This document shows, piece after piece, positions 1 to 60,392 of a DNA stretch of 64,000 nucleotides (positions are counted from its first letter, which is position 1; every line of letters begins with the position of its first letter). The stretch is from Bacteriovorax sp. Seq25_V (lineage in GTDB: Bacteria; Bdellovibrionota; Bacteriovoracia; Bacteriovoracales; Bacteriovoracaceae). The notes under the pieces are model-generated. The model was not told where the DNA came from, did no database searches, and saw only the letters and a program-made list of their open reading frames with translations. The stretch lies in NCBI RefSeq assembly GCF_000447795.1, contig NZ_AUNI01000010.1:124001-188000 (forward strand), given 5' to 3'. The position numbers and the translations under genes are program-made.

Positions 1-1
1 A

Positions 2-499
2 CCTGTTGCTTCTATTCTATTTTCGGAAAAATTCCAAGCGACATTTGAAAAACACTATCGTGGGATGAATGATAAAGTTCGCCCAAAGAGTAGATTCACA
101 AGTTTTCAGGCAGAGATAGCATTAGAAAACTATGAGGTCTTTAGTAAAAAACAGATCGCGAATATTGAAAAAAAGCTATCATTCGAGAAAATGATAGATG
201 CAAATATTGCAAGAGTACAATCTGTCCCAACCAAGGGAAAGCCGAGTTTTTATAATTCAACAATTATAGTAAAAGAAACAGGTGGACCTAAAAGATTAAA
301 GAATATTTTATTCAAAAATGGTTATGATTCTGGTTTTGGATCTGAGGTCATCGATTGTTGTGACAAGTATTTTGATGGGGAGTTTAATAGCCCGAATGCC
401 AAGTGGGTTGAAGAGCAGATACTTTTATTACCAATACATGAGCGAGCAGAGAATAGGGACATTTTGAGAATTTCTAAAGTAGTAAATAATGCTAATTAA
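2..499 (+). CDS. DegT/DnrJ/EryC1/StrS-family PLP aminotransferase, C-terminal part (5' end outside window)
   Basis: The reading frame is open from the first bases of the window, so this is the 3' part of a longer gene and the ATG at 65 is internal. The visible 165 or so residues match the small C-terminal domain of sugar aminotransferases: a GKPSFYNSTIIVK-type strand, a helix, then the closing LPIHERAENRDILRI segment, which corresponds to the family's 'LPxHxxLsxxDxxxI' end. Such enzymes transfer an amino group to keto-sugars bound to nucleotide carriers. The PLP-lysine domain lies upstream and cannot be checked. The downstream radical SAM gene overlaps its end by 11 bases, so it is part of the same operon, probably for surface-glycan synthesis. 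Confidence 0.75.
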   Translation, partial: PVASILFSEKFQATFEKHYRGMNDKVRPKSRFTSFQAEIALENYEVFSKKQIANIEKKLSFEKMIDANIARVQSVPTKGKPSFYNSTIIVKETGGPKRLKNILFKNGYDSGFGSEVIDCCDKYFDGEFNSPNAKWVEEQILLLPIHERAENRDILRISKVVNNAN

Positions 500-1547: not shown

Positions 1548-3139
1548 AAAAAAGTACTATCTTAAAATATCACTTAGAAATTATAGTCGTTGTTTTGCTT
1601 GTATTCTTTGGTTTATTTCTCAATTACTTTGATCCTTTTGTTAATGATCTCTATATACTGCAAGCTAATGCTATTTTAAACGGGAAGTTGGATATTGTTT
1701 CAGCTTCATCAGATTTATTAATCTTTGATTCAACTATTTATAAGAATTCTATTTATATGAGCTGGGGGCTATTGCCAGCGTTTGAGTATATTATCTTCTC
1801 TAAACTAACTTTCGGCATGCTTAGTCCATCGGTGCTTTTCTATATTCACTTAGGTCTAATTCCTATTCTTCTAAAAAAAATTTCAGAAAGTTCAAGTCTT
1901 GGTTATATTGCATTGATTTCACCGTTCTTTCTTTATTTTTTTAAACAAGATGTAGTGGCAGTAGACTTATCATTTATTTTTGGGCTTAGTTATTTCTTAG
2001 CTTCGATTTACGCACGTAAAAAAGAAAAACATTATATTGGAGCTATAGGTATTATTGCTTCTGCACTTTGTCGTTTTGGCTTTCTACCGATTTTAATATC
2101 ATACCTTCTGATTGACTCATTAAGATTTAAAAAATATTTTCTGAACTTGTTAACAATTGTTGTAGCAGTTGGCTCTGTCCTGTATGTGAACTATTTAAAA
2201 TTTGAAAATTTTTTATTTTGGGGAGAGAGGTTTAATAAATTTCAGGGTGAGTGGATCACAATACTTAAAACCTTACAGGTCGATAGTTTTAGTTTGAGTA
2301 GAATCGGGTATTCTTTTATTGACTTCGTTCGAGGTGTTTTTTTAAATTTTGGTGGAGAAATTGTTTATGGAAATAGTTTAGCGATATCTCAATTAAATAG
2401 TATTCTCATTTATATATTTATAGGAGCCTTAGTGTACATGCTCCTTTCAAAATTATTGGAGGTAAAGCTTTGTGATACTTCTATGCTGCTGTTGTTCTTT
2501 GTTGATATTCTTTTTCAGATAATTTTTGTACGATTCTACTCTTTCAGACTCTTGTTTATATCCTTTATTCTTCTCTTTTTAAGTTTTGAAATTAGAATAA
2601 AAAAAGACAAGTTCTCTTTATTGGCAATGATATGTTGTTTCCTATTCTTAATAATACTAAATGACTCTATTGGAACACGACATAATAAACTGGATACTTT
2701 GCAGAATCGTGATGAAGTTCACTCTTATGACTATAGTGATAAGACCGAGTATCTGTGTGAAGATGTAAAGAGTGCTTTGAGGAGAGATAGACAGGTCTTT
2801 GACAGCTTGTTTACTGGTTTTGTCATAGAGAATGAGCGTTGTTATGCAAAAAATCCGTTTTCTATTCTAGTTAATAAAGAAAAAAAGCGCTGTCTATTAG
2901 AAATAGATTTAAAAGATATTACATGTGATAAACTTTGGTTGAAAAGCATTGCAGGTGATAATATATTTAAAGAAGAAAATGGGGTTTGTTCGGCGATAAT
3001 TGAGAGTGATTATATTGGAGAGCTACTTCTGTATCTGATTTATGACTTTGAAAATCAAATCGTAGGACAAAATATATATATGAATAAAAGTAAGAGTGAA
3101 TTTATAAGACTTAACTTGGACTGTGTTAATGAGTACTAA
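1544..3139 (+). CDS. Polytopic membrane protein, GT-C (GT39-like) glycosyltransferase candidate
   Basis: A 531-residue inner-membrane protein with about ten hydrophobic segments in residues 10-385 and a soluble, Cys-containing C-terminal part of about 140 residues. After the first membrane helix comes an acidic extracytoplasmic loop (FDPFVNDLYILQANAIL), the place where GT-C transferases carry their catalytic Asp. This suggests transfer of a sugar from a polyprenyl-phosphate carrier outside the cytoplasmic membrane. The start overlaps the upstream stop (ATGA), and the next gene, a DPM1-like GT2 that could make such a carrier-bound sugar, overlaps its end. No family signature is strong enough to name the product; the function is inferred from topology and context. 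Confidence 0.55.
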   Translation: MKKSTILKYHLEIIVVVLLVFFGLFLNYFDPFVNDLYILQANAILNGKLDIVSASSDLLIFDSTIYKNSIYMSWGLLPAFEYIIFSKLTFGMLSPSVLFYIHLGLIPILLKKISESSSLGYIALISPFFLYFFKQDVVAVDLSFIFGLSYFLASIYARKKEKHYIGAIGIIASALCRFGFLPILISYLLIDSLRFKKYFLNLLTIVVAVGSVLYVNYLKFENFLFWGERFNKFQGEWITILKTLQVDSFSLSRIGYSFIDFVRGVFLNFGGEIVYGNSLAISQLNSILIYIFIGALVYMLLSKLLEVKLCDTSMLLLFFVDILFQIIFVRFYSFRLLFISFILLFLSFEIRIKKDKFSLLAMICCFLFLIILNDSIGTRHNKLDTLQNRDEVHSYDYSDKTEYLCEDVKSALRRDRQVFDSLFTGFVIENERCYAKNPFSILVNKEKKRCLLEIDLKDITCDKLWLKSIAGDNIFKEENGVCSAIIESDYIGELLLYLIYDFENQIVGQNIYMNKSKSEFIRLNLDCVNEY

Positions 3140-3821
3140 TATTGATCTCTCGATAGTTGTACCATTTTTGAATGAAGAGTTAGTTTTGAATTCTTTTTTT
3201 GAGAATGCATTTAAAAAGCTAGAATCATCTCAGATCTCGTTTGAGATTATTGGCGTCGACAATGGATCAATTGATTCATCTTACGAAATTGCACAGAGAT
3301 TCCCAGTTAAATTGGTTAAAGAAAAAATGCGTGGATATGGTGCTGCACTAAAACGAGGTTTTATCGAAAGTCGTGGCCAGTATATTGCTTATCTTGATTG
3401 TGATGGGAGTTATACAATTGAAGATCTTATTGCTTTATATCAAGAGATTAGAGAAAAAGGGTCTGATAAAGTCATTGGTACTCGAATCAATGATAAGTCC
3501 GAAAGTAAAGCGATGCCTCTCTTGCACCGCTATGTTGGAACACCGATGTTAAATTTATTGTGTTTCATTAGGCATGGGCTAAGAACAAATGATGTTAACT
3601 CAGGTCTTCGAGTGTTTCGCTCAAGTATTCTTAAGAAAATGAGTTTGAGTAGCGATGGGATGGAGTTTGCTTCAGAGTTCTTAATTAAGTGCTATCGAAG
3701 TAATTTTCAAATACATGAAGTCCCAATCTCTTATGGTAGGGGCTTTTCTACATCTAGACGCCCACATCTTAGGCCACTTCGTGATGGTTGTAGACACTTC
3801 TTGATGATTCTTAAGTCATAG
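3129..3821 (+). CDS. Family 2 glycosyltransferase (dolichol/polyprenyl-phosphate sugar synthase type)
   Basis: GT-A fold transferase of 230 residues. It begins with SIVVPFLNEE, has GVDNGSIDSS (nucleotide-binding Asp), a GYGAALKRGF segment and the metal-binding YLDCDGSYTIEDL block, all typical of DPM1-like enzymes that put a sugar on a polyprenyl phosphate. It ends without the membrane helices seen in larger polyprenyl transferases. A GTG at 3123 lies in the same frame, but the ATG at 3129 gives the usual family N-terminus. It overlaps the preceding membrane gene by 11 bases. It could provide the lipid-linked sugar used by the two GT-C-like proteins of this island. Confidence 0.8.
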   Translation: MSTNIDLSIVVPFLNEELVLNSFFENAFKKLESSQISFEIIGVDNGSIDSSYEIAQRFPVKLVKEKMRGYGAALKRGFIESRGQYIAYLDCDGSYTIEDLIALYQEIREKGSDKVIGTRINDKSESKAMPLLHRYVGTPMLNLLCFIRHGLRTNDVNSGLRVFRSSILKKMSLSSDGMEFASEFLIKCYRSNFQIHEVPISYGRGFSTSRRPHLRPLRDGCRHFLMILKS

Positions 3822-3842
3822 ATACTAATGATAAGTTAAAAA

Positions 3843-3871
3843 TTGTTCAGAATTTAACATTGTGATAAAAT
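3843..3871 (+). promoter_or_regulatory. Putative promoter directly in front of the B12-type radical SAM gene
   Basis: TTGTTC at 3843-3848, 17 bases, then TAAAAT at 3866-3871. The start codon at 3879 follows the -10-like hexamer after only seven bases and has no Shine-Dalgarno sequence, so the transcript may be leaderless. Confidence 0.4.
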
Positions 3872-3878
3872 TTAAACA

Positions 3879-5318
3879 ATGAAGATATCTCAAAATGATC
3901 TCATATATTTCATACGTTTAGACAGGGACGCCTCGAGAAGAGTTGTCGAACCTCGACATCTGCACCCAGCTTTAGATATCAAATATTCAATGGAACTACT
4001 CTCTGAATTTAATAAAGAATATCATGATCAGTGGATAGATATGCTTTCAGAAGAAGAGTTAATTGCTAAAGTTGTGAAGTCTGGATGTCGTATTGCTATA
4101 ATTCGAGCTACATCATTTTGTTTTGAGGAATCTTTATCACTAAGTAAGAAACTTCAAAAAAATAATATCATTACTATTGCTATTGGCCAGCAAACAACCC
4201 AGTTATTAAAAATTTCAGAATCATTAGCTACTGATTCATATCGTTATATTTTACACGGTGAAACTGAGATTGCAGTTAGAGATTTGATAGTCGAACTTAC
4301 AAAGTGCGATGATGATAATGAACTTAAGTCTAAGTACTTTGAAAAATTTAAATCTAATTACTACCATATAGTTGAAAAACCTGAAGAACTTCCACTTTTA
4401 ACTTTTACACAACAGGAGCATCGTTCATATCCTTTTCCATTTCCTGTAAGAGGTGGTTTCTTCAAGAAATGGGCATATCTATTGTCTGCTTGGGGTTGTC
4501 CGCATAAATGTGATTTTTGCACTTTGCTCGTTAGAAAGTCTACTGGTGACAATTTGAGAAGACGTTCACCAGAGCGAGTCGTTGAAGATATCGAAAATCT
4601 TGTAAGGCAAGGTGCAGATTTTATTGTTATTGAAGACGATACATTTTTTTGCAATCGAAATCATTTACGAACTATTTGTCGATTAATTATAGATAAAAAG
4701 ATCAAAATCTCATGGATGTGCAATGCACGAATTGATGAGATTGATGAGGAATCGCTAGCTCTGGCAAAAGAAGCGGGACTCAAACTTGTTAAGGTTGGAA
4801 TTGAGACAGGAAGCCCCCGTGTAATTGAGAAACTAGGTAAATGTAAGAGTGGCACTACATGGTTGGAGAATATTTCTACATCATTTAAGCTCTTCGAACA
4901 ATATGAAGTTGGAGCAATCGGACTTTTTATGGTTGCGACACCAGGTGAAGAAATTGAAGATTTTAGACAAACTGTTGAATTGTTAAGGACGATAAACCCT
5001 GATTATATTCAAGTTCAAATTTTCACGCCTTACCCTGATATTAAATATTATAAGGAAGTTGAAAACTTCGTAAATTCTGAGAAAAGCTTTTATCATTATA
5101 AAGTGCCAGAAGTTAAGTTATCTAAGATTACAGAGTATACCGAGAGTGAAATGCAAAATCTCTTGTATCGTCGTTTCTATTTAAATCCTAGATATATTTA
5201 TCGTCATCTAAGATACTGTTGGCGTTATTATACAAACGCTAGCTATGTAAGAATGTTGACGCGAAAGCTTTTTGAAAAGTTTAGCGATATCTTAAGAATA
5301 AAAAATTATGAAGCCTAG
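3879..5318 (+). CDS. B12-binding-domain-type radical SAM protein
   Basis: A 479-residue enzyme of the cobalamin-dependent radical SAM type by architecture: an N-terminal alpha/beta domain of about 140 residues like a B12-binding domain, then the radical SAM core with CxxxCxxC at C207, C211, C214 (WGCPHKCDFC). The N-terminal domain lacks the classical DxHxxG, which is common in this class. The core has the expected VIEDDTF, RIDEIDEESL and VKVGIETGSPRVIEKLGK segments. B12 radical SAM enzymes methylate unreactive carbons or rearrange substrates; the product here is unknown. The next radical SAM gene overlaps its end by 11 bases. A 57-base gap upstream with a promoter-like sequence suggests its own transcription start inside the island. 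Confidence 0.8.
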   Translation: MKISQNDLIYFIRLDRDASRRVVEPRHLHPALDIKYSMELLSEFNKEYHDQWIDMLSEEELIAKVVKSGCRIAIIRATSFCFEESLSLSKKLQKNNIITIAIGQQTTQLLKISESLATDSYRYILHGETEIAVRDLIVELTKCDDDNELKSKYFEKFKSNYYHIVEKPEELPLLTFTQQEHRSYPFPFPVRGGFFKKWAYLLSAWGCPHKCDFCTLLVRKSTGDNLRRRSPERVVEDIENLVRQGADFIVIEDDTFFCNRNHLRTICRLIIDKKIKISWMCNARIDEIDEESLALAKEAGLKLVKVGIETGSPRVIEKLGKCKSGTTWLENISTSFKLFEQYEVGAIGLFMVATPGEEIEDFRQTVELLRTINPDYIQVQIFTPYPDIKYYKEVENFVNSEKSFYHYKVPEVKLSKITEYTESEMQNLLYRRFYLNPRYIYRHLRYCWRYYTNASYVRMLTRKLFEKFSDILRIKNYEA

Positions 5319-6354
5319 TACTTACTATCAACTTATTAGATGGCATGTTTTATCTTGGTTTGTTCCTCAAAAAATTAGTCGCCGATCACCATATAAATTA
5401 ATGATTCAGTTAACAAATCTTTGTAATTCAAAGTGTAAAAACTGTCTTATATGGACACATGAAGTGAATAAGAATCCAGACTATAAGGAAGTTAGTGTGG
5501 ATGAGATTGCCCATGTCATGTCCGAACTCAAAAATGATCTATTCTGGGTTGCCTTCACAGGAGGGGAGCCTACATTAAAAAAAGCTGAGATTTTTGAGCT
5601 TCTAAAAAGGGCAGTTGAAATATGTCCTCGCATGCGAGTGGTTGCTTTTACCACTAACGGTCTCAAGCCAAATGATGCGCTAGAGATCGCATTAGAAATT
5701 AGAAAGTATAATCTTGATAGTATTGTGACAATAAGTATGGATGGTGATGAAAAGACCCATGATCATATTAGGGGTATTAAAGGAAATTATCAGTTGGCAC
5801 TTGAGACGTATAAGTTACTCAGAGATCATGGAGTAAAAGTTCACTACGGACTGACTGTGGGAAAATTAAATCATGATTATATCAAAGAACATTATCAGAA
5901 TGACGGAAAGAACATTAAGGCCATTACGTTTACCCATATGAATGGTATTTATTCATATAGTGGAGATGTTAACTCGTCTCGTATACTTGATAGTCTTAAT
6001 ATTATTATGAAGAGCTATAAAGTCGAAAAATTACATGAAATCATTGAATTTATTTATCTGAAAATTTCAAAGAAATTTTTTATAAAAAAAATGAGAAAAA
6101 ATATTATTCCATGCTCCGTGATGAAATCTACAATAGATATTATGGCCGATGGTGAAGTTGTACCATGTATGTTCTTACCAAAAATAAGCGATGCTCAAGA
6201 TTTTAAAAAAGAAATGTTGTTCTCGGAAAAAGGACAGAAGATTATTGATGATATAAAGAGAGAAAAGTGTCCTAAGTGTTGGATGAATTGCTACGCACCT
6301 CACTCAATTATCGAGCATCCAGTAAAATCAGTTATACAGGCGGTTATTAATTAA
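5308..6354 (+). CDS. Radical SAM protein with SPASM-like C-terminus (second copy in island)
   Basis: A 348-residue radical SAM enzyme. The core motif CNSKCKNC gives C39, C43, C46, and FTGGEPTLK is the SAM-binding GGEP motif. The end carries PCSVMKSTIDIMADGEVVPCMF and CPKCWMNC, a pattern of auxiliary-cluster cysteines. It is related in layout to the protein at 489-1547 but clearly divergent. The gene is coupled to the B12-type radical SAM gene (11-base overlap) and to the following membrane protein (TAATG junction). These three are probably made together and may act on the same substrate. The substrate cannot be read from the sequence. Confidence 0.8.
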   Translation: MKPSTYYQLIRWHVLSWFVPQKISRRSPYKLMIQLTNLCNSKCKNCLIWTHEVNKNPDYKEVSVDEIAHVMSELKNDLFWVAFTGGEPTLKKAEIFELLKRAVEICPRMRVVAFTTNGLKPNDALEIALEIRKYNLDSIVTISMDGDEKTHDHIRGIKGNYQLALETYKLLRDHGVKVHYGLTVGKLNHDYIKEHYQNDGKNIKAITFTHMNGIYSYSGDVNSSRILDSLNIIMKSYKVEKLHEIIEFIYLKISKKFFIKKMRKNIIPCSVMKSTIDIMADGEVVPCMFLPKISDAQDFKKEMLFSEKGQKIIDDIKREKCPKCWMNCYAPHSIIEHPVKSVIQAVIN

Positions 6355-8048
6355 TGAAGATGCCAGCAATGATTTTGGGACTTTTCTGCTTTTTCTTTTC
6401 TATTATTGATACGGAAATTTTACAGCAGTTGATCACAGTTAAATTGAAACAGCCTCCCGTTGTGAAATTAAGCCCTATGTGTGACAAGGTTAAAGTTCTG
6501 GTTGAGAAGAGAGGCGATGCGACACCTAAGAAACGAGATAAAGAGATCTCTTGTGAGTTATTAGATTCTTATATTTATAACTCTAACTACTTATTATTAA
6601 ATTTTGGAGATAGTTATAAAGGTTTTATTGAAGTTAATGGTTATGCTTACATTGTAAGTCCAGGAGAAGATGTAACTGTCGTTTCGAACAGTCTGGCCCG
6701 TATGTATATTGTTATAAGAATAGGATTAGCTATCTTATTATTGTTTTTACTTCGTCGAAAGTATTTTTATGAGCTTTATCCCGCAGTTGTCGTGACTAGT
6801 TTGATTTTGCTATATTTTCCAGGAGGGGGGAGTTTTGATATTCTAGGTTATTTGCAAATTTATAATAACTTTCCAAATTATCTCGATAATGAATATTCCT
6901 TAGCCCGAATATTTCCATTTCTCGTAACTCAATTTTTAAGTAATAGTATTTTTGTCTATAAGTTAATGCAAGTATGTCTCTGTTGTTTCGGCATTTTACA
7001 TTTTATACAAAGTCTAATTCGAGACAAGAAGTTGCAACTTGTGTCGTTTACTTTTGTTGTTGTGTTAGGTTGTCTTTTTAGTTTGGCCTATTCTTATACT
7101 GACTTGATCTTTACGGGCTTACTGTTTTTGAAGTTGTCCTACTTGACTTCACTGATTAAAGAAGGAAAAGGTTCGTCTCATTATACTTTTGTAAGCATCT
7201 TACTCGCTGTATATCGTAAAAACTCGATTGTCTTGTTAGCTTTTGATGTAGCTCTTTTTTTCTTTTTGAAACTATCTCGAAGGTATGTTGCTGTCTATAT
7301 GACTGCCTTTGCTTTAATTTACAGTTTGAGTTATGGGGTATTTATTGATGAGGCTGATACTGGTTATAGTGGTTATGCTGTTCTTTATGAACTACACCCC
7401 TTACATAGTAAGTATCCTGAAGAGCTTGCGTGGTTGAGACCATACTTTAGGGACGGGACTCTTTCTAAGCCACGTAAAAGTTCCTTGATTCAAACTTATT
7501 ATCGTGGGGATAAGCTTGATGATGATCTAATTGATAGGGAGTATATAGCCGAACACTATGAAGTGATTCATCAGAATTATTTAACTTTTGCAATTGAACA
7601 TCCATTAGAAGTTCTAAAACAGAAATTTATCTTATTTTCATACTTTTTGGGCATGAATGTCGGTACTAATAGCTATCAAAAGAATGTAGATATGATTAGT
7701 TATTTCAATAATAATAATGGGGATTTTAGATTCTTTAATAAGGATCGTTCTCGAGAGGTTTCAATTTTTAAATTACAGGAGTTTCGAATCTTTCAAAATA
7801 TGATGAAGTATTTGTGGATACTTCATATCGTCTTTATATTATTTCTAGGATATGCAGCGATAAAGAAAATGAAAATTGAATTGCTAGTTCTAAGCTGTGT
7901 CTTAGTATATACATTATCTTTTTTAATTTTCAGTCATGGCTTCTTGCTACACTATTCCTATTATCTGATTGTGATTACGAAAGTTTTCTTTTTTAAATTT
8001 TATGAGCTTTGGAGAGAGAAGTGTCAAACTTTATCATTCACAGAATAA
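6354..8048 (+). CDS. Polytopic membrane protein, GT-C-like, with small N-terminal periplasmic domain
   Basis: A 564-residue inner-membrane protein. One hydrophobic segment (residues 5-20) is followed by a soluble domain of about 90 residues, then about nine membrane segments from residue 120 to 330, a hydrophilic region (residues 335-420) with LHPLHSKYPEELAWLRPYF, and two or three C-terminal membrane segments. This layout resembles GT-C-type transferases or O-antigen-like membrane enzymes, but no signature is decisive. It is coupled to the radical SAM gene upstream, and the GDPD-like gene downstream starts inside its end. It is the second such membrane protein in the island, so two membrane-level transfer steps are plausible. 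Confidence 0.5.
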   Translation: MKMPAMILGLFCFFFSIIDTEILQQLITVKLKQPPVVKLSPMCDKVKVLVEKRGDATPKKRDKEISCELLDSYIYNSNYLLLNFGDSYKGFIEVNGYAYIVSPGEDVTVVSNSLARMYIVIRIGLAILLLFLLRRKYFYELYPAVVVTSLILLYFPGGGSFDILGYLQIYNNFPNYLDNEYSLARIFPFLVTQFLSNSIFVYKLMQVCLCCFGILHFIQSLIRDKKLQLVSFTFVVVLGCLFSLAYSYTDLIFTGLLFLKLSYLTSLIKEGKGSSHYTFVSILLAVYRKNSIVLLAFDVALFFFLKLSRRYVAVYMTAFALIYSLSYGVFIDEADTGYSGYAVLYELHPLHSKYPEELAWLRPYFRDGTLSKPRKSSLIQTYYRGDKLDDDLIDREYIAEHYEVIHQNYLTFAIEHPLEVLKQKFILFSYFLGMNVGTNSYQKNVDMISYFNNNNGDFRFFNKDRSREVSIFKLQEFRIFQNMMKYLWILHIVFILFLGYAAIKKMKIELLVLSCVLVYTLSFLIFSHGFLLHYSYYLIVITKVFFFKFYELWREKCQTLSFTE

Positions 8049-8608
8049 ATTCGATAAATGAGTTGTTAACTATTCCATGCGAATATGGCGTAGAAGTTGA
8101 CTTGCGTTGGCACAATAATAAGATCGTTCTTGCACATGATCCTTGCCTAGTCGAAGAGAAATACGAAGATCTAGAGTCGTATCTTAAAAAGTTTGCACAC
8201 GCATATATTATTTTGAATATAAAAGAGACTGGGTTTGAGGTTAACGTTGTTGAAATCCTCAAGAAATATAATATTAAAAATTATTTTTTTCTAGATATTC
8301 AATTTCCAGCCGCTGTTAAATTATTACGACAGGGAATTACAAAGTTTGCTCTAAGATTATCAGAGTACGAAAATCTTGATTCTGTTGATGACTTAATCGC
8401 TTTTCCAAGCTTTGTATGGGTGGATTGTTTCACAAAATATCCAGAAAATAGTACAATAAAGAATATTCGAGATAAGGGAATCAAAGTTTGCTTTGTAAGC
8501 CCCGAGCTTCAAGGGCACCAGTTTGCACTCGCTAATCAGTTGATTGTAACTGATGATGATTATATTTGTTGTAAATTAGAAACTGTGACGAGTTGGACTA
8601 GTAGGTAA
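8021..8608 (+). CDS. GDPD-like (PI-PLC-like phosphodiesterase fold) protein
   Basis: About 195 residues. The segment GVEVDLRWHNNKIVLAHDP matches the second conserved block of glycerophosphodiester phosphodiesterases (GxExDvxxtxDgxxVxxHD). Later segments NIKETGFEV, FALRLSEYE and VCFVSPE follow the barrel's strand order. The usual N-terminal HRG motif appears as FIIHRINS. A TTG at 8009 is in frame, but GGAGAG at 8011-8016 is spaced correctly for the GTG at 8021, which I prefer. It overlaps the membrane gene by 28 bases. GDPD-like proteins in sugar islands may release or transfer glycerophosphate groups; here that is inference. It is shorter than the secreted GDPD at 37053 and has no signal peptide. 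Confidence 0.6.
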   Translation: MSNFIIHRINSINELLTIPCEYGVEVDLRWHNNKIVLAHDPCLVEEKYEDLESYLKKFAHAYIILNIKETGFEVNVVEILKKYNIKNYFFLDIQFPAAVKLLRQGITKFALRLSEYENLDSVDDLIAFPSFVWVDCFTKYPENSTIKNIRDKGIKVCFVSPELQGHQFALANQLIVTDDDYICCKLETVTSWTSR

Positions 8609-9293
8609 ATCTTCTCTTTATCGAGAAAACCACAACCCTAGTTATAAATTTAACGACAGACATCGGCCCCTTATTCCATTTCGATGCGCCATGAAGGCGA
8701 GAAGGAAAGAGTGTTTTCATTCGAATAATCTTAAGATCTTTTTTAATCGCTTCAGTGTAGAAAAAGAGATCAAGTGAAAAGTCGTTAGGATAGTTTTTCA
8801 TTGCTTTGAAAAAATATGCAGGAAAAATATTTGGTTGAGCATTGATTTCATATATCTTTTTTTGAAAAAGAAGTGTCTCAAAAATACTCATTCCAATACT
8901 TAGTATAGTGTCGAGAAGTGGTCTGCCAGAACGTCTTCCTTTAATATAAACTTGTAATGTCTCAGACTCGAGAAGAATTTGATAGGCCCTATATATATCC
9001 ATCGGGTCTGTTTGAAGGTCTGCGTGTGTCCATCCGATAAAATCGCCTGTGCATTGCTTAAGACCTTCAGTGATACCGAACCCATAGCCTTTGTTGACTG
9101 GAATATCGACAACTTTAATGAAGTCATGTGGCTTGGCGTGATCAGTTAGTACACTTACAGTGTTGTCAGTTGACCCATTGTTAACAATTACGAGTTCAAG
9201 ATTTAACTTTTTACTGACCTTACTAAATCTATTAATCAATTCAGGAATATTGGCCGCTTCGTTATAGCACGGTGTAACAATAGAAATCTTCAT
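8598..9293 (-). CDS. Family 2 glycosyltransferase
   Basis: A 231-residue GT-A transferase starting MKISIVTPCYNEAANI, with VNNGSTDNT and the Asp-rich block WTHADLQTDP in the DxD position, a pattern of polyprenyl-phosphate or undecaprenyl-linked sugar transferases. Near the C-terminus there is a conserved-looking RLHGASKWNKG segment, which is common in DPM1-like and GtrB-like enzymes. The start was placed at 9293 because it overlaps the upstream stop as ATGA; the extra eight residues further upstream are unlikely. It is last in a minus-strand operon with a nucleotidyltransferase and a class II aldolase, and ends 11 bases into the convergent GDPD-like gene. Confidence 0.8.
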   Translation of the reverse strand: MKISIVTPCYNEAANIPELINRFSKVSKKLNLELVIVNNGSTDNTVSVLTDHAKPHDFIKVVDIPVNKGYGFGITEGLKQCTGDFIGWTHADLQTDPMDIYRAYQILLESETLQVYIKGRRSGRPLLDTILSIGMSIFETLLFQKKIYEINAQPNIFPAYFFKAMKNYPNDFSLDLFFYTEAIKKDLKIIRMKTLFPSRLHGASKWNKGPMSVVKFITRVVVFSIKRRFTY

Positions 9294-10732
9294 CGTGAAC
9301 TTAACTCCTGATAGCATGATTTAAAGTAGAAGAAAGATTCATATTCATTAGGTGTTCCAAGACTAATAAAGTGCTTTACTGGAAAAGATGAAACCTTGAG
9401 ATTCTCTTTGATTAAATAGGGTACTAGAGAATCAACATAGTATTCGCCATTAATCTTGTCACACTGGTTTAGAAGCTCTTGGTAAGCTTTTTTAAACATT
9501 AACGCCTTTTTAAAATAGAAAAGACCAACAATTGCTTGATCTTTTAAAGGTGTCTTTGAAATTGGAGTTTTAACACTTACACCAGTAACCATGTTTTGGT
9601 TATCTGTTTTAAGCCATCCGTAATGTTCTGGTCGTGTCATCATGTTAGGATGATTAGTGAATGAAAAATAAATAACATCACTTTGGACCTTAAGCTTATT
9701 GAAAGCTTCAATATCAAACTCGGCACAGTTATCGCAAACCCCTACGAGAATTTCACTGTCATCTGCTATGTGTTTAACGGCCTCATAAACACTGCAGGCC
9801 TGACCTTCTGTAGGTGTTAAAATTTTCCTAAGAGCTAGAGGTTTGAATCTATCCAAGTAATCAGCTTTATCATCAAGCGTGATGAAGTGGTATTTCTTTG
9901 CCTCCTTCACATGTCCAGCAGTGAATTCAATCAGAGTCATATCTTCAATCGGTAGGAGGTGTTTTGGTGTTGCGTAGTTTGCACTAGCAAAACGGCTACC
10001 TTTTCCTGCAAGTGGTACTATGTACTCAATATCGGGTATTCGTTGCTCAGATATTTTGGCGACATCGAAATAGTGATACCAGTTTTCAAATAATCTTATT
10101 TTGGATTTCGAATCTAGCTCTAAATTGATGACATCACCATATGTCTCTTTCTGTATGTCAGATTGGTCAAATATTGATTCTGTGTGAAAGTGATTTAATG
10201 AAATTGATTTCTTTATAAAATCTTTAAGAAGTTTAAATGTTTTAAAATAATAAAGACCGCAAGAAACATCTTCACTATGTGGTATTTGAGTAAACGATTT
10301 CTTATGTCCAATTTGAATTTTTTGACCACTAACATTTTTTACGAAAGAATAATCTTGAGAGTCGAGTCTGAAAGGGGTCTGGTGTTTGGAGATAAAAAGT
10401 ATTGTGTCTTTAGTGGAATCAATTGTGGACTTGAACTTCTTGTAATCAAAGAGGACAAGAAGGTCACTATAATGAATGAAAACTTCATCATTTTCATCGA
10501 TACTGAGATGACTAATTGCGCTTTCAATAGTTTGAAGTGGGCCTTTATTATTCTTTGCTACATTAATATTTATAGTCCCCGAAATCCTCTGATCAACTTC
10601 TTGTGAGATGGAATAGAAGTTAGTCTTTTCGGGAAAATTATTTTTGATGTGCTCAAAAATAGTCTTGTTGAGGAAGAGCCTGGTAAGACAGTCCTGGTGA
10701 ATTTGAGAAATGGGAATGATTACAGATGTCAT
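9290..10732 (-). CDS. Sugar nucleotidyltransferase with two tandem GT-A-like domains, the first degenerate
   Basis: A 480-residue protein. The C-terminal half (from about residue 228) has the nucleotidyltransferase signature: VPLAGKGSRF, then PKHLLPIEDMTLIEF, a TEGQACSVYEAV strand-helix and VGVCDNCAEFD as the metal-binding position. It should join a sugar phosphate to an NTP. The N-terminal half repeats the same order (GPLQTIESAISHL, then FIHYSDLLVLFDY, then SCGLYYFKTFKLLKDF) but has no glycine-rich GxGxRF loop, so it looks like a duplicated, inactive copy. The start at 10732 overlaps the upstream stop as TAATG. The sugar is unknown; the upstream aldolase and downstream GT2 suggest a dedicated activated sugar for surface glycan. 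Confidence 0.7.
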   Translation of the reverse strand: MTSVIIPISQIHQDCLTRLFLNKTIFEHIKNNFPEKTNFYSISQEVDQRISGTININVAKNNKGPLQTIESAISHLSIDENDEVFIHYSDLLVLFDYKKFKSTIDSTKDTILFISKHQTPFRLDSQDYSFVKNVSGQKIQIGHKKSFTQIPHSEDVSCGLYYFKTFKLLKDFIKKSISLNHFHTESIFDQSDIQKETYGDVINLELDSKSKIRLFENWYHYFDVAKISEQRIPDIEYIVPLAGKGSRFASANYATPKHLLPIEDMTLIEFTAGHVKEAKKYHFITLDDKADYLDRFKPLALRKILTPTEGQACSVYEAVKHIADDSEILVGVCDNCAEFDIEAFNKLKVQSDVIYFSFTNHPNMMTRPEHYGWLKTDNQNMVTGVSVKTPISKTPLKDQAIVGLFYFKKALMFKKAYQELLNQCDKINGEYYVDSLVPYLIKENLKVSSFPVKHFISLGTPNEYESFFYFKSCYQELSSR

Positions 10733-11712
10733 TATCTTCTCGCTTTCCCTAGTGCCCAATTAGATATTCTTTCGACTACTGTCTTGTCCAGAAAGTTAAT
10801 ATTACTTTCTTCGAGTGCCAGACATATTTCAATCTGTGCTATGGCCAATTCTTCAACTTCTGTTCTTTTTACAGCGTCTTGCTCAAGTAGAAATAGATAG
10901 TCATTATAGACTAACACTTTTTTGTTACTGGTATTTTTAATATTCTGGTCTTCTGGACTATCGCCAAGGTGAATAATGATATCTGGACTGAGGTAATTGC
11001 CAAAACAGCTTGGAAGCTTCTCTTGCCACTGAGAGGTATAGAATTTAATACTTTTCTTTTGAAGAATTCTAAACAGCTTCTCAGCAGCTTCAAAATAATC
11101 GATATGAAAATTAGTATATTGAATTAGTGAATTGATCTTCTTAAAAGTAACGTTTAGAAGAGTCTCTAGTTCTTGGTAGGAATCAGTGCTGATAATAATT
11201 CCATGATTTTGCATGAAGATAACTTCTGGAATGTGTCCAAGTTTTGAGATTTCTTTTTTTAGCTCTATTCCTAACTCAAGGCCCGGATGAGCGTAGTTAA
11301 GGCAGAGTGCCTTTGGAAAGTGCTGTCCGATATAATTTTTCCAATCATTTCGACAAGAAAGAATGAGTGAGCCTATCTGATGAAGATGTACAGTATACTT
11401 TTTAAGTTGGACATGTAAAAAAGTTTCGATACTTGGTCGTAAAGAGTCTGCATCGAATTGTTGATAGAAATTTTTTTGATGTGAATCGAGATCTGAATTT
11501 TCTAATAGTAAATTATTAAAGGCATCCATCTCCGAACTAAAGAAATCATCGATGGTATTTATATTGCCCATGTGTCTGCCACTTGGTTTAATGTAAATTT
11601 TATTTCCCTCTTTAAAGGATATATTTCCCCCGTTAGACTGATTATAGTCTTTTCTTAATTCGATGAGTTTGCACAGAGAAATAATGTGGTCTAGGTTTTC
11701 CATGTTTATCAT
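10732..11712 (-). CDS. Class II aldolase/adducin-family protein with C-terminal extension
   Basis: Residues 1-225 match the class II aldolase/adducin fold (fuculose-1-phosphate aldolase type): SNGGNISFKEG, IYIKPSGRHMG, VHLHQIGSLI (metal-binding histidines) and VIFMQNHGIII. Family members are usually 210-240 residues; this one has about 100 more residues at the C-terminus (ITFYTSQWQEKLP onward) that look like part of an alpha/beta domain of unknown role. The reaction may be a retro-aldol cleavage or synthesis of a phosphorylated sugar. Start alternatives are 11712 and 11703; neither has a clear ribosome site. It is the first gene of the three-gene minus operon and diverges from the radical SAM trio. 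Confidence 0.7.
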   Translation of the reverse strand: MINMENLDHIISLCKLIELRKDYNQSNGGNISFKEGNKIYIKPSGRHMGNINTIDDFFSSEMDAFNNLLLENSDLDSHQKNFYQQFDADSLRPSIETFLHVQLKKYTVHLHQIGSLILSCRNDWKNYIGQHFPKALCLNYAHPGLELGIELKKEISKLGHIPEVIFMQNHGIIISTDSYQELETLLNVTFKKINSLIQYTNFHIDYFEAAEKLFRILQKKSIKFYTSQWQEKLPSCFGNYLSPDIIIHLGDSPEDQNIKNTSNKKVLVYNDYLFLLEQDAVKRTEVEELAIAQIEICLALEESNINFLDKTVVERISNWALGKARR

Positions 11713-11784
11713 CTTAACAAATAAGCTAAGATATTAAAATTAGGAGTTTTTTTCTATTTCTGATCATGATTCTAAGTTCTATGA

Positions 11785-11790
11785 GATAAT
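11785..11790 (+). promoter_or_regulatory. -10-like hexamer six bases before the start codon
   Basis: GATAAT lies exactly six bases before the ATG at 11797, and no Shine-Dalgarno sequence is present. No good -35 was found. This matches the leaderless pattern seen at several other genes of the window. Confidence 0.3.
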
Positions 11791-11796
11791 TAATTA

Positions 11797-13434
11797 ATGG
11801 AAATTATTACGTTTATAAGAATTGAAAATAAAGAGTTCGAGCTGTATCAATTACAGGGACTTATGTATCCGCCAATGTGGGCGGTGACGCTTAATTCTTA
11901 TCTGATGAAAGAGTTTTCGCAACAGTTAAAAAGCGAGTTAGTTGACCTTCGCATTCAAGAATTCAAGGAAATTAAACCTTCATCATATTACTGCCTGTCT
12001 GGGATGAATCAAGATTTGCACGTATTAGCCGAGGTCGCCGATAAACTTAGAAAATTAAATCCTAGGGCCAAGATTCTTCTTGGGGGTCCGATTACCTGGT
12101 CATTTGAGCAAGAGGGAAAACTTTCAGAATTAAATTTTGCTGATCATATCTTCATTGGAGATGGAGAAGTTGAGTTTGTTGAATACTTTAAAAAAGATTT
12201 TGCGAAGATAAATATCTCAAGAATTATTAATGCGGAGACTAAGTTTAATCTTTCTGATGCAATCGCATTTGATGAAAAGCTTTTTTCGCATCTTATTCCA
12301 TATTACTCAGGTGGCTGTGTAGAGGTTTCACGCGGTTGTCCATTTCTATGTGAATTTTGTGATATTCGGGTAATGCCTGATAATAATCGCTCACATTGTA
12401 AATCTATTGATGTCATTATGGATGAGCTAAAAGTATTTCAACGTAGCGGTCTGAACTTTGTTTTTATGGCCTGTGATAATTTTAATGGTGATGTGAAGTG
12501 GGCCGAAAGGTTATGTGATGAGATTATCAAATGGCGTGCTATTGAAGATGTCAAAATAAGTTTTTATACTTGGTCGACAATAAATATATGCTACCATCCA
12601 AACTTATTGAAGAAAATGAGGCTTGCTGGAATTGATACGCTCTTTATTGGTATCGAAAGTTTCCATCAAAACTCTCTTCTTGAGACCTCGAAAGTCCAAA
12701 ATACAAAGTTAGATCTCATTGAGGCAAATAAGCTTATTCAAAGTTATGGATTTATTCTATATGCCGGTCTTATTATGGGCTTTGATAATGACCCTGAAGA
12801 TATTGCAAGCATTCAGCTTGAAGGACTGGAGAAATCAGGGTTAATCTCGGGGGACATAACACCACTTCTTGCATTGCCAGGGACACCTCTGTACAAACGT
12901 CTGAAAGATGATGGACGTCTAAGAGTGCATCAAAAATCATCACTTGGTTATAAGCGCTACTCCAGCAATATTATCTTCAATAGACCAACTGACGTAATTA
13001 AAAAGCAACTGAAAGAATATTTAAATGGCTATAATAGAGGAACTTTTCAACGTCGTCGCTATATAAACTTTTTAAAATCACAGCTGAGTGAACAAAGAAT
13101 TGATAGCAAAACAGGAGACTATGCTTCACTATCTGAAGTATTCAAAATTGTAATTCGTGAACCTGCAGTTCTTCTAAATTACATTAAACGAATGATGATG
13201 GTATTTATTAATCTCGAAAGGGCCGCTAATTTTATTTTTGCATCGGCCTATACACTATATTTCTCGATTCGTTACTTTAACTGTATGTCTTATTTTAAGT
13301 TTTGGCTCTTTGCTTGGACAACTTCATTGCTTAAGAGTTTAAATATCCCAGAGAGTGAAATTGATCTTCAAGGAAATCATGAAATCAAGGAAACAAAACT
13401 TCAAGTATTGAAATTAAAGGTGGCAAATGAGTAA
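11797..13434 (+). CDS. B12-type radical SAM protein (HpnP/DUF4070-like)
   Basis: A 545-residue protein with an N-terminal B12-binding-type domain (residues 1-150; ILLGGPITWSFEQ, without DxHxxG), and a radical SAM core with C181, C185, C188 in SRGCPFLCEFCDIRVM. The CEFCDIxVM continuation and the FVFMACDNFNGD block are typical of the DUF4070-containing group that includes hopanoid C2-methylase HpnP. Family knowledge therefore suggests methylation or rearrangement of a lipid-like or polyketide-like carbon. Residues about 455-510 are hydrophobic, so it may sit at the membrane. It is first of three coupled radical SAM genes (8-base overlap with the next). No squalene-hopene cyclase is in the window, so hopanoids are not implied. 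Confidence 0.78.
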   Translation: MEIITFIRIENKEFELYQLQGLMYPPMWAVTLNSYLMKEFSQQLKSELVDLRIQEFKEIKPSSYYCLSGMNQDLHVLAEVADKLRKLNPRAKILLGGPITWSFEQEGKLSELNFADHIFIGDGEVEFVEYFKKDFAKINISRIINAETKFNLSDAIAFDEKLFSHLIPYYSGGCVEVSRGCPFLCEFCDIRVMPDNNRSHCKSIDVIMDELKVFQRSGLNFVFMACDNFNGDVKWAERLCDEIIKWRAIEDVKISFYTWSTINICYHPNLLKKMRLAGIDTLFIGIESFHQNSLLETSKVQNTKLDLIEANKLIQSYGFILYAGLIMGFDNDPEDIASIQLEGLEKSGLISGDITPLLALPGTPLYKRLKDDGRLRVHQKSSLGYKRYSSNIIFNRPTDVIKKQLKEYLNGYNRGTFQRRRYINFLKSQLSEQRIDSKTGDYASLSEVFKIVIREPAVLLNYIKRMMMVFINLERAANFIFASAYTLYFSIRYFNCMSYFKFWLFAWTTSLLKSLNIPESEIDLQGNHEIKETKLQVLKLKVANE

Positions 13435-15046
13435 GAGAAAGATCGCACTTATTTATCCACTCGATGATAGTTTGCCACTGCAATCAACAAGCTATCGTGT
13501 TTATATGCCTCGCTATGGAATTCTCGCTGTCGCGGCAAGACTTATTAACGAAGGTTATGAAGTTCAGACATACTGTGAACAGTCGGGTAGTGAGGTCGAC
13601 TGGAACTTCGTTCAGAAGGCAGATTATGTTTGTTACTCAATCCTATCCTTTAGTGCTTTTAAGGCATATGAATATACTCAGAAGGTTTCACAAATAAATC
13701 CAAAAGCTATTCAAATTTATGGTGGCTCCCATGCTTCACTCGCTGCAGATGATTGTCTTGATCATGTTGATTACGTCATTCGTAATGAGGGAGAAGAGAC
13801 TCTCGTTGATCTTCTCTCAAAGCTTGAGCAAGGAAATAGCGTAAAGGATGTATTAGGGCTGAGCTTAAATTTTGAGGGAGAGAAAAAGCATAATGTTGCA
13901 AGACCTTTTATTAGTGATGTTAATCAGGTCTTAACCGCGGATCTAATTAAGAATTATAAAAAGAGAAGTATAGGAACTTATATTAAAGACATCTTTACTA
14001 TTGGAATGCCGAGATTCAATGTTGTGGTATCTCAGTCTAGTCGTGGCTGTCCCTTTGACTGTAAGTTCTGCTTTGTGAAAATTGAACTTGGAAAGCAGTA
14101 TCGTCGTAAGACCCCAGAGATGGTTCTTATGGAAATTGAAAATGGGATTAATCAACTTGGATCGAAATATGTGATGTTTGTTGATAATGATTTTTGTATA
14201 AGTAAGAATCATACGTTGGAAGTTCTTAAACTTATTGAAGAGAAATACTACGGTGACATTGACCTCTTTATTTTCACAAGAATAACGGTCGCATTTGATC
14301 AAGATATAGTAGAAGCATTTAAAAGAGCTGGGCGTGTATGCTTAGCCCTTGGAATTGAGTCAATTGAATCTGACACGCAGACAGAATATAAGAAAGAGTT
14401 CTCAAATAACTCAATTGAGAATGCCTTAAAAATATTGAATGATAATGGGATTAAATATCACGCCCTCTTTGTTGTTGGTTCAGACTATGACACTCAAGAG
14501 AGTATTGATAAAATTTTAAAGTTTTCTATCAAAAATAATGCATTCTATATGGGACTTCAGATTCTTTATGATTTTCCACGAAAGGAGATTGTGACCAAGT
14601 CGGAGCAATGTATTCCAGATCATCGTTATATTCATCATGATTGGAGATTCTTTTCTGGAACTTTTGTTATTCATTTTCCCAAAAAGATTAGGCCTTCTGT
14701 TTTACAAGAATCAGTCGTTAAGGCCCATATGGATTTTTATAAGAAGAGCAAATTCTTTATTCAGTTCTATGCAACCAAAGGAATTATGCGCTCATATATA
14801 AAGTACTTGCGGATGATTGAGCACGGACTTTACGACGAGAATGATATCCTTGATGAAGCGAAACTAGAAAACTGGATACAAGAAAAGAAAATTGAGATAA
14901 AATTTAATCTCTATGATTATCTACTAGAGCTTGGTCGCTTCTATGCGATGAATATTTTTAGAAAAGATTCGTGGATGTACTTATTAAGTATTGTAAAGCC
15001 AATGCAAAAGCCAAAACTTGAAGAACACTCAGAGGAAGCCGCATGA
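13427..15046 (+). CDS. B12-type radical SAM protein
   Basis: A 539-residue enzyme. Residues 1-150 form a B12-binding-like domain (IYGGSHASLAADD matches the 'GGxHaS' strand-loop), again without the cobalamin His motif. The radical SAM core has C208, C212, C215 in SRGCPFDCKFC, followed by QYRRKTPEMV and FVDNDFCISKNHTLEVL. The substrate is not known. It is distinct in sequence from its upstream neighbour and is coupled to both flanking radical SAM genes by overlaps of 8 and 4 bases, which implies stoichiometric production and probably successive steps in one pathway. Confidence 0.78.
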   Translation: MSKRKIALIYPLDDSLPLQSTSYRVYMPRYGILAVAARLINEGYEVQTYCEQSGSEVDWNFVQKADYVCYSILSFSAFKAYEYTQKVSQINPKAIQIYGGSHASLAADDCLDHVDYVIRNEGEETLVDLLSKLEQGNSVKDVLGLSLNFEGEKKHNVARPFISDVNQVLTADLIKNYKKRSIGTYIKDIFTIGMPRFNVVVSQSSRGCPFDCKFCFVKIELGKQYRRKTPEMVLMEIENGINQLGSKYVMFVDNDFCISKNHTLEVLKLIEEKYYGDIDLFIFTRITVAFDQDIVEAFKRAGRVCLALGIESIESDTQTEYKKEFSNNSIENALKILNDNGIKYHALFVVGSDYDTQESIDKILKFSIKNNAFYMGLQILYDFPRKEIVTKSEQCIPDHRYIHHDWRFFSGTFVIHFPKKIRPSVLQESVVKAHMDFYKKSKFFIQFYATKGIMRSYIKYLRMIEHGLYDENDILDEAKLENWIQEKKIEIKFNLYDYLLELGRFYAMNIFRKDSWMYLLSIVKPMQKPKLEEHSEEAA

Positions 15047-16290
15047 GTAAGAAATACTGTGTTATATCAACAACTGAAGGTTGCGCAACGAATCTCGTTG
15101 AAAATTCGCAGTACAAAAATTCAATTGGTCAGGCCGGAGCTCAGCTCGTAAGTAATGTTGAAGAGGCCGATGTTGTTATCTATAATACTTGTGGCTATTC
15201 TCAACAGATGGAAGACCGAGCGGTAGGTGAGATAAAGAAAGTTCGCGATCTTTATCCTGAAAAAAAAATCGTCGTTGGCGGATGCCTTCCAAGTATTAAT
15301 AAAGACTCTCTAAAAGATATATATGATGGTGAAACTTTTCGCCCTGGGGATATAAAAAAACTCTTCAGTCTCTCAGATATCGATTACGACCTTATTCCTG
15401 AATTCGATGAACAAATTGGCTTTGATCCAAATGACTTCTCATCTTTAAGTTTTAAGCATCGCTTTTTAAACTCGGTGAGAAATATCTATTTTGGTATCGA
15501 GAGGGCTTTCGGTGGAAGATTTCAACCTCTCTCAAATATCGTCGAGTCGGCAATCGTTAATAATGAATATCAAACGGTAACTGTGAGCACTGGTTGCCTT
15601 GGTGAATGTTCTTTTTGCTCGATCAAGATGGCAAAGGGCTCGGTTAAGAGTCGCCCACGTACAAAGATTGTCGAAGAAATTCGCTCGGGCCTACAACTGG
15701 GCAAGAAGAAATTTTGGCTTCTTGGAGATGATATCGGATGTTATGGTCAGGATGTCGGGGATAATATTGCCAATCTTCTTGAAGACATTCTAAGTATCGA
15801 AGAAGATTTTTCTCTAGTTCTAAACTATATGGAGCCTATGTTTCTTGAGAAGTATTACGATCGTCTGATAGTGCTTCTTTCTGATACTCGAGTGAAAAAT
15901 ATCAATTTCCCAATACAGTCAGGTAGTAAGAAGATCGTCTTTAGTATGAGAAGATTTTATCATCCACACAATATTTTGAAGATGATGGCAGAACTTAGAA
16001 AGGTTAACTCGCAAATTGTGCGCAAGACAAATATCATTGTTGGTTACCCCGGAGAAACCTTCTCCGAATATATGGAAAGTGTGAAGGCCGTTTTTTATTT
16101 TGATGCTTTAGTTGCTTTTAGATTCACTCCGAGAAAACATTCGCTTGCAGCGAAGCTTCCCGAGCAATTAAATAAATTCGTTATTGGCTATCGTTTTTGG
16201 TTTATCAACTTGGCAATTCTTTTAAGACATAGTGTGGTGGCACTAACTTCTTTGAAGAATAGAGTTACTTCTTCAGTGCCGCGATCTTAA
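15043..16290 (+). CDS. MiaB/RimO-like methylthiotransferase-family radical SAM protein lacking a TRAM domain
   Basis: A 415-residue protein with the full MTTase N-terminal module: C14 (EGCATN), C50 (NTCGYS) and C81 (GGCLPS) for the auxiliary 4Fe-4S cluster. The radical SAM motif is C185, C189, C192 (TGCLGECSFC), with SRPRTKIVEEI after it as in MiaB/RimO. Family enzymes thiolate and methylate tRNA adenosine or ribosomal protein S12 and end in an RNA-binding TRAM domain. This one ends instead with a hydrophobic stretch (FWFINLAILL) and a short basic tail. It is coupled (ATGA) to two B12-type radical SAM genes, so I infer a C-S bond-forming role on a non-RNA substrate. It overlaps the convergent ferredoxin gene by 26 bases. 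Confidence 0.75.
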   Translation: MSKKYCVISTTEGCATNLVENSQYKNSIGQAGAQLVSNVEEADVVIYNTCGYSQQMEDRAVGEIKKVRDLYPEKKIVVGGCLPSINKDSLKDIYDGETFRPGDIKKLFSLSDIDYDLIPEFDEQIGFDPNDFSSLSFKHRFLNSVRNIYFGIERAFGGRFQPLSNIVESAIVNNEYQTVTVSTGCLGECSFCSIKMAKGSVKSRPRTKIVEEIRSGLQLGKKKFWLLGDDIGCYGQDVGDNIANLLEDILSIEEDFSLVLNYMEPMFLEKYYDRLIVLLSDTRVKNINFPIQSGSKKIVFSMRRFYHPHNILKMMAELRKVNSQIVRKTNIIVGYPGETFSEYMESVKAVFYFDALVAFRFTPRKHSLAAKLPEQLNKFVIGYRFWFINLAILLRHSVVALTSLKNRVTSSVPRS

Positions 16291-16621
16291 CATCACCATT
16301 ACCATTTAGTCTCGCGCGACAAGAAAGTCTTACTTCTTTGCCAACGGTAAAATGATTTGGATTTTGGTCCTGATAATCTTTAACGATATTGGAGATAGTG
16401 TTTCCTTCGATAACACTCTTTCCTGCGACGTTATCACTTCCTTCGATGATCAAGATTCGGCAAGAGCCACAAGATCCGGCCAAGCACCCGTGGGGTAATT
16501 GACATCCCTGATTATCTATTGCGTCATAGATAATGTCACCAGTTTCGACTGTGAATTTCTTTTCACTATTCGAGATTTCATTACCTTGCTCATCTATTTC
16601 TACTACTGACACGGTGGGCAT
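16265..16621 (-). CDS. 2Fe-2S ferredoxin (plant/vertebrate type fold)
   Basis: A 118-residue soluble electron carrier. The cluster ligands are C46, C51, C54 (HGCLAGSCGSC) and C101 (LSCRARL), the CxxxxCxxC...C pattern; C40 is an extra cysteine nearby. The N-terminus (PTVSVVEIDEQG) gives the first beta strands of the fold. An AAAGGAT-type ribosome site precedes the ATG. It is convergent with, and overlaps, the MTTase-like gene. It might supply electrons to the radical SAM trio or to other metabolism; the sequence does not decide. Housekeeping Isc-type ferredoxin is an alternative, but the usual isc neighbours are absent. Confidence 0.85.
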   Translation of the reverse strand: MPTVSVVEIDEQGNEISNSEKKFTVETGDIIYDAIDNQGCQLPHGCLAGSCGSCRILIIEGSDNVAGKSVIEGNTISNIVKDYQDQNPNHFTVGKEVRLSCRARLNGNGDVKIAALKK

Positions 16622-16710
16622 ATTACTTTTATCCTTTAGCTAGTAAATTTCATCGTTATTACAACCTTATCGACTCATATTTGAATAACTTAAGTGAGTG
16701 AGATTATTGA

Positions 16711-16716
16711 AGGAGG
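16711..16716 (+). promoter_or_regulatory. Strong Shine-Dalgarno deciding the leucine dehydrogenase start
   Basis: AGGAGG lies four bases before the ATG at 16721. It shows that the in-frame GTG at 16694 is not the main start. Confidence 0.75.
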
Positions 16717-16720
16717 AAGC

Positions 16721-59142: not shown

Positions 59143-59255
59143 ATTAATCCAAGTTGTTAAGATTTCGATGAATCATTGCGTAAATTCATTATATTAATTA
59201 CAATTAATATTAACAATCCAACTCAATAAACACAAGAAATCAGGAAGTAACTTAA

Positions 59256-60390: not shown

Positions 60391-60392
60391 AG

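Follow-up and report, generated by a model that had tools for sequence, protein, structure and literature searches.

A TRAM-less methylthiotransferase-like enzyme in an overlapping radical SAM gene trio of Bacteriovorax sp. Seq25_V, with a possible role in tailoring a surface sugar

Methylthiotransferases (MTTases) are radical S-adenosylmethionine (SAM) enzymes that have been described as three-domain proteins, consisting of UPF0004, radical SAM and TRAM domains (PMC5352715, PMC10702137). The cysteines of the UPF0004 domain follow the pattern CX35-36CX32-33C (PMC5352715), and ribosomal protein S12 is the only known MTTase substrate besides tRNA (PMC10702137, 2023). In the open-access literature, no account of a TRAM-less MTTase clade was found. 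Here we analyze a window of 64,000 nucleotides from Bacteriovorax sp. Seq25_V (positions 124001-188000 of contig NZ_AUNI01000010.1, referred to as C10; the genome is 3.45 Mb and 99.97% complete). The window contains three overlapping radical SAM genes, rSAM1, rSAM2 and rSAM3. The third encodes a TRAM-less MTTase-like protein, whose sequence places it in a branch of the CH3-S-attaching enzymes that has apparently not been described. Positions without a prefix refer to the window.

All three genes lie on the forward strand. rSAM1 (11797..13434) encodes a radical SAM protein with an N-terminal B12-binding-type fold, rSAM2 (13427..15046) a B12-binding domain with a radical SAM domain, and rSAM3 (15043..16290) a UPF0004 domain with a radical SAM domain; the Pfam Radical_SAM domain scores above its cut-off in each of them. 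The overlaps are exactly 8 nucleotides between rSAM1 and rSAM2 and 4 nucleotides (ATGA) between rSAM2 and rSAM3, as had been noted in the original prediction, and this arrangement supports co-transcription of the trio.

The radical SAM domain of rSAM3 (PF04055, 57.5 bits) carries the motif CLGECSFC. The three N-terminal MTTase cluster cysteines that had been proposed, Cys-14, Cys-50 and Cys-81, are confirmed; they are spaced by X35 and X30, and together with the CX3CX2C of the radical SAM domain they make up six cluster cysteines. In most members of the rSAM3 family the second gap is X30, slightly short compared with the X32-33 of MTTases. The UPF0004 domain and the radical SAM cysteines are present in all 22 aligned family members, and all three auxiliary cysteines in 21, the remaining member being without its N terminus. 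No TRAM domain was found in any of the 22 at E ≤ 0.1; the MtaB encoded by the same genome does score TRAM. Because TRAM was tested for and is absent, rSAM3 is not assigned to the MiaB, MtaB or RimO families. It scores 216.1 bits against TIGR00089, below the cut-off of 251.

Superposition of the predicted rSAM3 structure (pLDDT 91.2) on MtaB, MiaB and RimO gives Z-scores of 31-34 over about 358 residues (root mean square deviation (rmsd) 2.5-3.1). Where canonical MTTases run on into TRAM, the model ends in a single long helix (residues 378-405; 16174..16257, forward strand) and contains no TRAM barrel, which agrees with the earlier proposal that this domain is missing. An amphipathic helix (residues 137-156; 15451..15510, forward strand) lies in a longer linker that joins the UPF0004 domain to the radical SAM domain. 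In core family members both helices are amphipathic with a net positive charge, and the C-terminal helix of most of them contains RHxxVxxxS; the two helices may contact the membrane. The conserved auxiliary cluster and the fold suggest that rSAM3 likely works in the manner of the MiaB, MtaB and RimO enzymes and would carry out MTTase chemistry. The original prediction had rSAM3 insert sulfur into a substrate other than RNA. This MTTase-like protein without TRAM probably does act on something other than RNA, and sulfur insertion is what its cluster and fold would predict.

In a phylogenetic tree, the rSAM3 family is split from 20 canonical MTTases of the MiaB, MtaB and RimO types with a support of 100/98; a few distant members, in genomes G033 and G100, have long branches and are placed with uncertainty. 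By profile, relatives were found in 17 of 369 genomes of the phylum Bdellovibrionota and in 10 of 129 genomes of the host's taxonomic family, the host included, and several of these hold two copies. The rSAM3 family is sporadic in the phylum. When the single rSAM3 protein was used to scan genome contigs, only two relatives were retrieved, at 46% identity in the Bacteriovoracaceae and 26% in the Bacillales. A plasmid search returned 100 records; the matches listed are 24-27% identical, and those with an annotation are called miaB or rimO.

The core members of the family are consistently found in the company of other radical SAM genes. All 17 have between one and seven within 10 kb, and in 16 of the 17 one of these is of the B12 type. 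Further neighbor families are SPASM-type radical SAM proteins, glycosyltransferases (GT2, GT9 and GT1), DegT aminotransferase, carbamoyltransferase, PhyH, Cupin/JmjC, FA_hydroxylase, FG-GAP/ASPIC and polytopic proteins. A lack of synteny in relatives had been named beforehand as grounds for refutation. This applies to the exact trio, which turned up in no other genome, but not to the wider association of rSAM3 with B12-type radical SAM genes, which recurs. The proposed pairing of an MTTase-like enzyme with a B12-type enzyme holds in this general form, with B12-type partners that differ between genomes.

Several rSAM3 loci show features of their own. The homologue of G031 (L058:8957-10243) has a reading frame that stays open ahead of its first usual start codon and takes in the cysteine equivalent to Cys-14. 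The locus of G061 (UBA6261) contains a 934-residue open reading frame (ORF) in which a carbamoyltransferase is fused with SPASM and radical SAM domains (L090:13347-16151). A family of small proteins lies beside SPASM radical SAM genes (L090:17410-17910, L096:15965-16441 and L099:5965-6729); the L096 protein (158 residues) matches Peptidase_S74, an endosialidase chaperone that is unusual outside phage tail proteins. Secreted-type FG-GAP/UnbV_ASPIC proteins recur in L059, L091, L092 and L098, and in L059 the genes for this protein, for a SPASM radical SAM enzyme and for DegT are apparently fragmented.

AprD4 is a radical SAM enzyme that has the B12-type fold without using B12, and it acts on an amino sugar. 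It is the nearest fold to the rSAM1 model (pLDDT 83.6), with a Z-score of 24.1 over 393 residues and an rmsd of 3.1, followed by CysS, TsrM, MgmA and OxsB; the matches to B12-type radical SAM enzymes have Z-scores of 19-24. AprD4 is also the best sequence match of rSAM2 in the Protein Data Bank (PDB). Both proteins had been predicted to be B12-type enzymes. For rSAM2 this is borne out by sequence (PF02310, 39.3 bits against a cut-off of 32.1); rSAM1 remains below threshold by sequence (20.7 bits) and is supported by its fold. The host encodes MetH, so B12 is used somewhere in the cell. rSAM1 carries CPFLCEFCDIRVM, the pattern for which it had been placed in the HpnP/DUF4070 group. The pattern is present, but the assignment is weak: DUF4070 scores 21.4 bits (cut-off 22) and the HpnR model 23.9 (cut-off 650). 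The nearest NCBIfam models include the B12-type families BchE, HpnJ, HpnR and the ladderane type, all of them far below cut-off. No match to SQHop_cyclase_N was found in the genome, in a search whose positive control in B. subtilis does give a match. HpnP-type hopanoid methylation is without support because the genome has no squalene-hopene cyclase, and it was rejected.

Full-length orthologues of rSAM1, 37-42% identical, are present in five genomes (G362, G127, G210, G211 and G141). In all five the adjoining genes encode a GT2-like and a polytopic protein; some of the GT2-like neighbors are confirmed by Pfam and others were judged by size and N-terminal sequence, and two of the polytopic proteins have weak PMT_2 scores. 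At E ≤ 1e-50, the rSAM3 profile has no match in these genomes. rSAM2 has no close orthologue among the 369 phylum genomes (best 28%); its best family hidden Markov model match, a distant one (114 bits), is F1, a B12-type radical SAM family found beside rSAM3 homologues elsewhere. With rSAM1 orthologues in genomes that have no rSAM3 match and only 28% for the best rSAM2 relative, a conserved unit of all three genes was rejected.

It had been claimed that no biosynthetic scaffold enzyme is adjacent to the trio. This is incorrect: an operon on the reverse strand diverges from rSAM1 across 84 bp. It encodes a class II aldolase-like protein (10732..11712), a sugar-1-phosphate nucleotidyltransferase-like protein (9290..10759) and a GT2 protein resembling DPM and ArnC, of the type that transfers sugars to polyprenyl phosphate (8598..9317).

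At its other end the trio meets a 2Fe-2S ferredoxin gene on the opposite strand (16265..16621), which overlaps rSAM3 by 26 nucleotides at their 3' ends. The ferredoxin had been suggested as the electron donor of the trio. It has orthologues in all six genomes of the genus, and in three genomes that were checked (G001, G003 and G004) it stands at the same place without the trio. It is an older backbone gene at the edge of an insertion, synteny rules it out as a dedicated partner, and the electron supply of the trio is not tied to it. In the same three genomes, the ferredoxin orthologue abuts the orthologue of a gene that here ends 35.4 kb away, at C10:104904; in G020 it abuts a neighbor further out. 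On the other side of the ferredoxin, all four genomes have the orthologue of a dehydrogenase (16694-17827). Since the ferredoxin abuts the distant gene's orthologue in relatives, C10:104905-140264 is extra DNA, an island of 35.4 kb with the trio at its right end; its right-hand 16.3 kb lie in the window (1..16264). With one carrier among the genomes compared, gain in the host is a simpler reading than loss in four relatives. The GC content (34-36% in the island, 35-36% in the flanks) is uninformative on lateral origin. Direct repeats at the island ends are limited to chance 9-mers, and the genes annotated in the island include no integrase.

Within 12 kb of the trio there are three further radical SAM genes, all on the forward strand: an orthologue of family F5 (5308..6354; 372 bits), a family whose genes are adjacent or close to an rSAM3 homologue in four other genomes, an F4-like gene (3879..5318; 122 bits) and a further gene (489..1547). 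Of 30 radical SAM matches in the genome, seven fall in the island, which makes up about 1% of the genome and would be expected to hold about 0.3 by length; as it was the abundance of such genes that drew attention to the island, the enrichment is descriptive and post hoc. The same strand also encodes a DPM-like GT2 protein of family F3 (3123..3821) and two polytopic membrane proteins without Pfam match that may be of the GT-C type, with nine (1544..3139) and seven (6354..8048) predicted transmembrane segments. The island also contains two DegT genes, GT9, carbamoyltransferase, a prepilin-like gene and PMT_2-like membrane proteins scoring below threshold.

The left part of the island lies outside the window. 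Its prepilin-like gene (L061:1058-3025) encodes a 655-residue protein with the signature SSGFTLAEVM (N_methyl 20.8 bits, cut-off 21.2) and is followed by two polytopic membrane genes; on the opposite strand is a gene for a 1103-residue protein with a hydrophobic start (L061:6060-9371). In the island, a weak rubrerythrin-like protein (L061:11744-12346; 19.8 bits, below the cut-off of 22.8) comes directly after the carbamoyltransferase. Within the window, a second cluster that resembles a surface-sugar locus, judged by eye from the ORF list, spans 55217-62501; it contains a split transketolase, a HAD/kinase-like gene, an NAD epimerase, a phytanoyl-CoA dioxygenase-like ORF, a DegT-like aminotransferase and a methyltransferase.

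The reading we favor, held at somewhat less than an even chance, is that the trio is the last operon of an approximately 35-kb surface-glycoconjugate island and tailors a lipid-linked sugar, with rSAM3 as a non-RNA methylthiotransferase. In its favor are the overlapping genes, the empty island site in four relatives, the sugar enzymes of the island, the retained cluster cysteines and MTTase fold, the separate clade without TRAM, the canonical MTTases that the genome keeps besides rSAM3, the recurrent radical SAM neighbors of rSAM3, the GT2 and polytopic neighbors of rSAM1, the amino-sugar enzyme AprD4 as the nearest fold to rSAM1, and MetH as a sign that B12 is used. Loading of a sugar on polyprenyl phosphate and its export are proposed because the neighbors include DPM/ArnC-like GT2 and GT-C-like proteins. 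The aldolase, nucleotidyltransferase and GT2 operon would make an activated sugar and load it onto polyprenyl phosphate. The trio would then modify the sugar or lipid-linked sugar before export, in the cytoplasm, where radical SAM enzymes and SAM are located, and PMT/GT-C-like membrane enzymes would transfer the modified sugar outside. By the MTTase reaction scheme (PMC10702137), one SAM would methylate the auxiliary cluster of rSAM3, a second would be cleaved to a 5'-deoxyadenosyl radical, and CH3-S would be inserted into a C-H bond. The substrate would be non-RNA and probably membrane-associated, with the helices used in place of TRAM. On the same building block, rSAM1 and rSAM2 would carry out C-methylation or dehydration by radical chemistry of the B12 type or like that of AprD4. 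That rSAM3 founds a TRAM-less MTTase clade which inserts CH3-S into the sugars or lipid-linked sugars of surface glycoconjugates is a more speculative proposal, possible but doubtful.

Several observations weigh against this assignment. No enzyme in the island has a known substrate, and the PMT/GT-C assignment is below threshold or absent for most of the proteins concerned. The radical SAM neighbors vary between genomes, so that the enzymes may not all act on one molecule. By analogy with AprD4, rSAM1 and rSAM2 may not bind cobalamin, and amphipathic helices argue only weakly for contact with a membrane. RimO modifies a protein, so a substrate other than RNA need not be a sugar.

This last point leads to an unlikely alternative, in which the radical SAM enzymes modify a protein or peptide: a prepilin-like or secreted FG-GAP/ASPIC protein, for instance, would be methylthiolated or C-methylated and then glycosylated, in the manner of RimO or of enzymes for ribosomally synthesized and post-translationally modified peptides. 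Besides the island, prepilin-like genes are found close to the rSAM3 homologues of G352 and G100 and to the rSAM1 orthologues of G210 and G211, the FG-GAP/ASPIC proteins recur in four loci, and the neighboring SPASM genes are often peptide-modifying. However, prepilins are found in only five loci, no recognized leader-binding domain is reported in rSAM3, no conserved short precursor peptide was seen (ORFs below about 90-110 residues were not searched), and sugar-building enzymes dominate the neighborhood. It is similarly improbable that no glycan is involved and that the product of the trio is a modified membrane lipid or diffusible small molecule. The BchE, HpnJ, HpnR and ladderane models and the FA_hydroxylase genes (F9) of several rSAM3 loci point that way, but these models all score far below cut-off, the cyclase for hopanoids is missing, the annotated island genes include no polyketide, non-ribosomal peptide synthetase or fatty-acid assembly gene, and the only company of rSAM1 orthologues is a GT2 gene together with a polytopic one.

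We give little credence to the idea that rSAM3 keeps the cluster scaffold for other chemistry, such as inserting sulfur with no methyl group or running a radical reaction that involves no sulfur. The short X30 gap and the score below TIGR00089 would fit it, but the auxiliary cysteines and the MTTase fold are kept. Least credible is that rSAM3 methylthiolates tRNA or S12 after the loss of TRAM, works on a variant RNA site and is clustered by accident: its nearest folds are MtaB, MiaB and RimO, and chimera work indicates that i6A/t6A specificity is not set by TRAM (PMC10702137), but the genome retains three canonical MTTases, of the MiaB, RimO and MtaB types, so that neither tRNA nor S12 requires rSAM3 and a translation role becomes less probable, and rSAM3 forms a separate, sporadic clade in constant radical SAM company.

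If the tailoring of a surface sugar by the trio is correct, a sugar or lipid-linked sugar would be a substrate class unrecorded for the MTTase family. A clade that has both clusters and no TRAM, and that travels with radical SAM genes, makes it possible to test directly what purpose TRAM serves and whether methylthiolation extends past the translation apparatus. The locus also draws attention to radical-SAM-dense, variable surface islands of predatory Bdellovibrionota, a class that has not been studied.

Among known systems, a plasmid block of Brachyspira hyodysenteriae, as given in the accessible part of its description (PMC4267127), packs several radical SAM genes with glycosyltransferases and sugar epimerases, for which the authors suggest lipooligosaccharide synthesis or glycosylation; compared by description only, it is like the island in gene content on a variable replicon, in a different organism, and that part mentions no MTTase-like gene. 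The variable regions of Halobacteriovorax marinus BE01/SJ, a related predator, hold horizontally acquired transferase and polysaccharide genes (PMC5760749); in this comparison, also by description only, no radical SAM enzymes are mentioned. The B12-dependent radical SAM methyltransferases TsrM, OxsB, CysS, TokK and MgmA share with rSAM1 and rSAM2 an N-terminal B12-type fold and a radical SAM domain, at 11-21% identity. AprD4, a radical SAM 1,2-diol dehydratase whose substrate is paromamine (PDB 6fd2), is the nearest fold to rSAM1 and the best PDB sequence match of rSAM2, but it is only 12% identical to rSAM1, belongs to an antibiotic aminoglycoside pathway and is without the extra helical C terminus of about 100 residues found in rSAM1. 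The MiaB, MtaB and RimO enzymes (TIGR00089) have the three UPF0004 cysteines, the CX3CX2C motif and the overall fold in common with rSAM3. Unlike them, rSAM3 has no TRAM domain but a longer helical linker and a C-terminal amphipathic helix, and it belongs to a separate clade that occurs sporadically, in radical-SAM-dense clusters.

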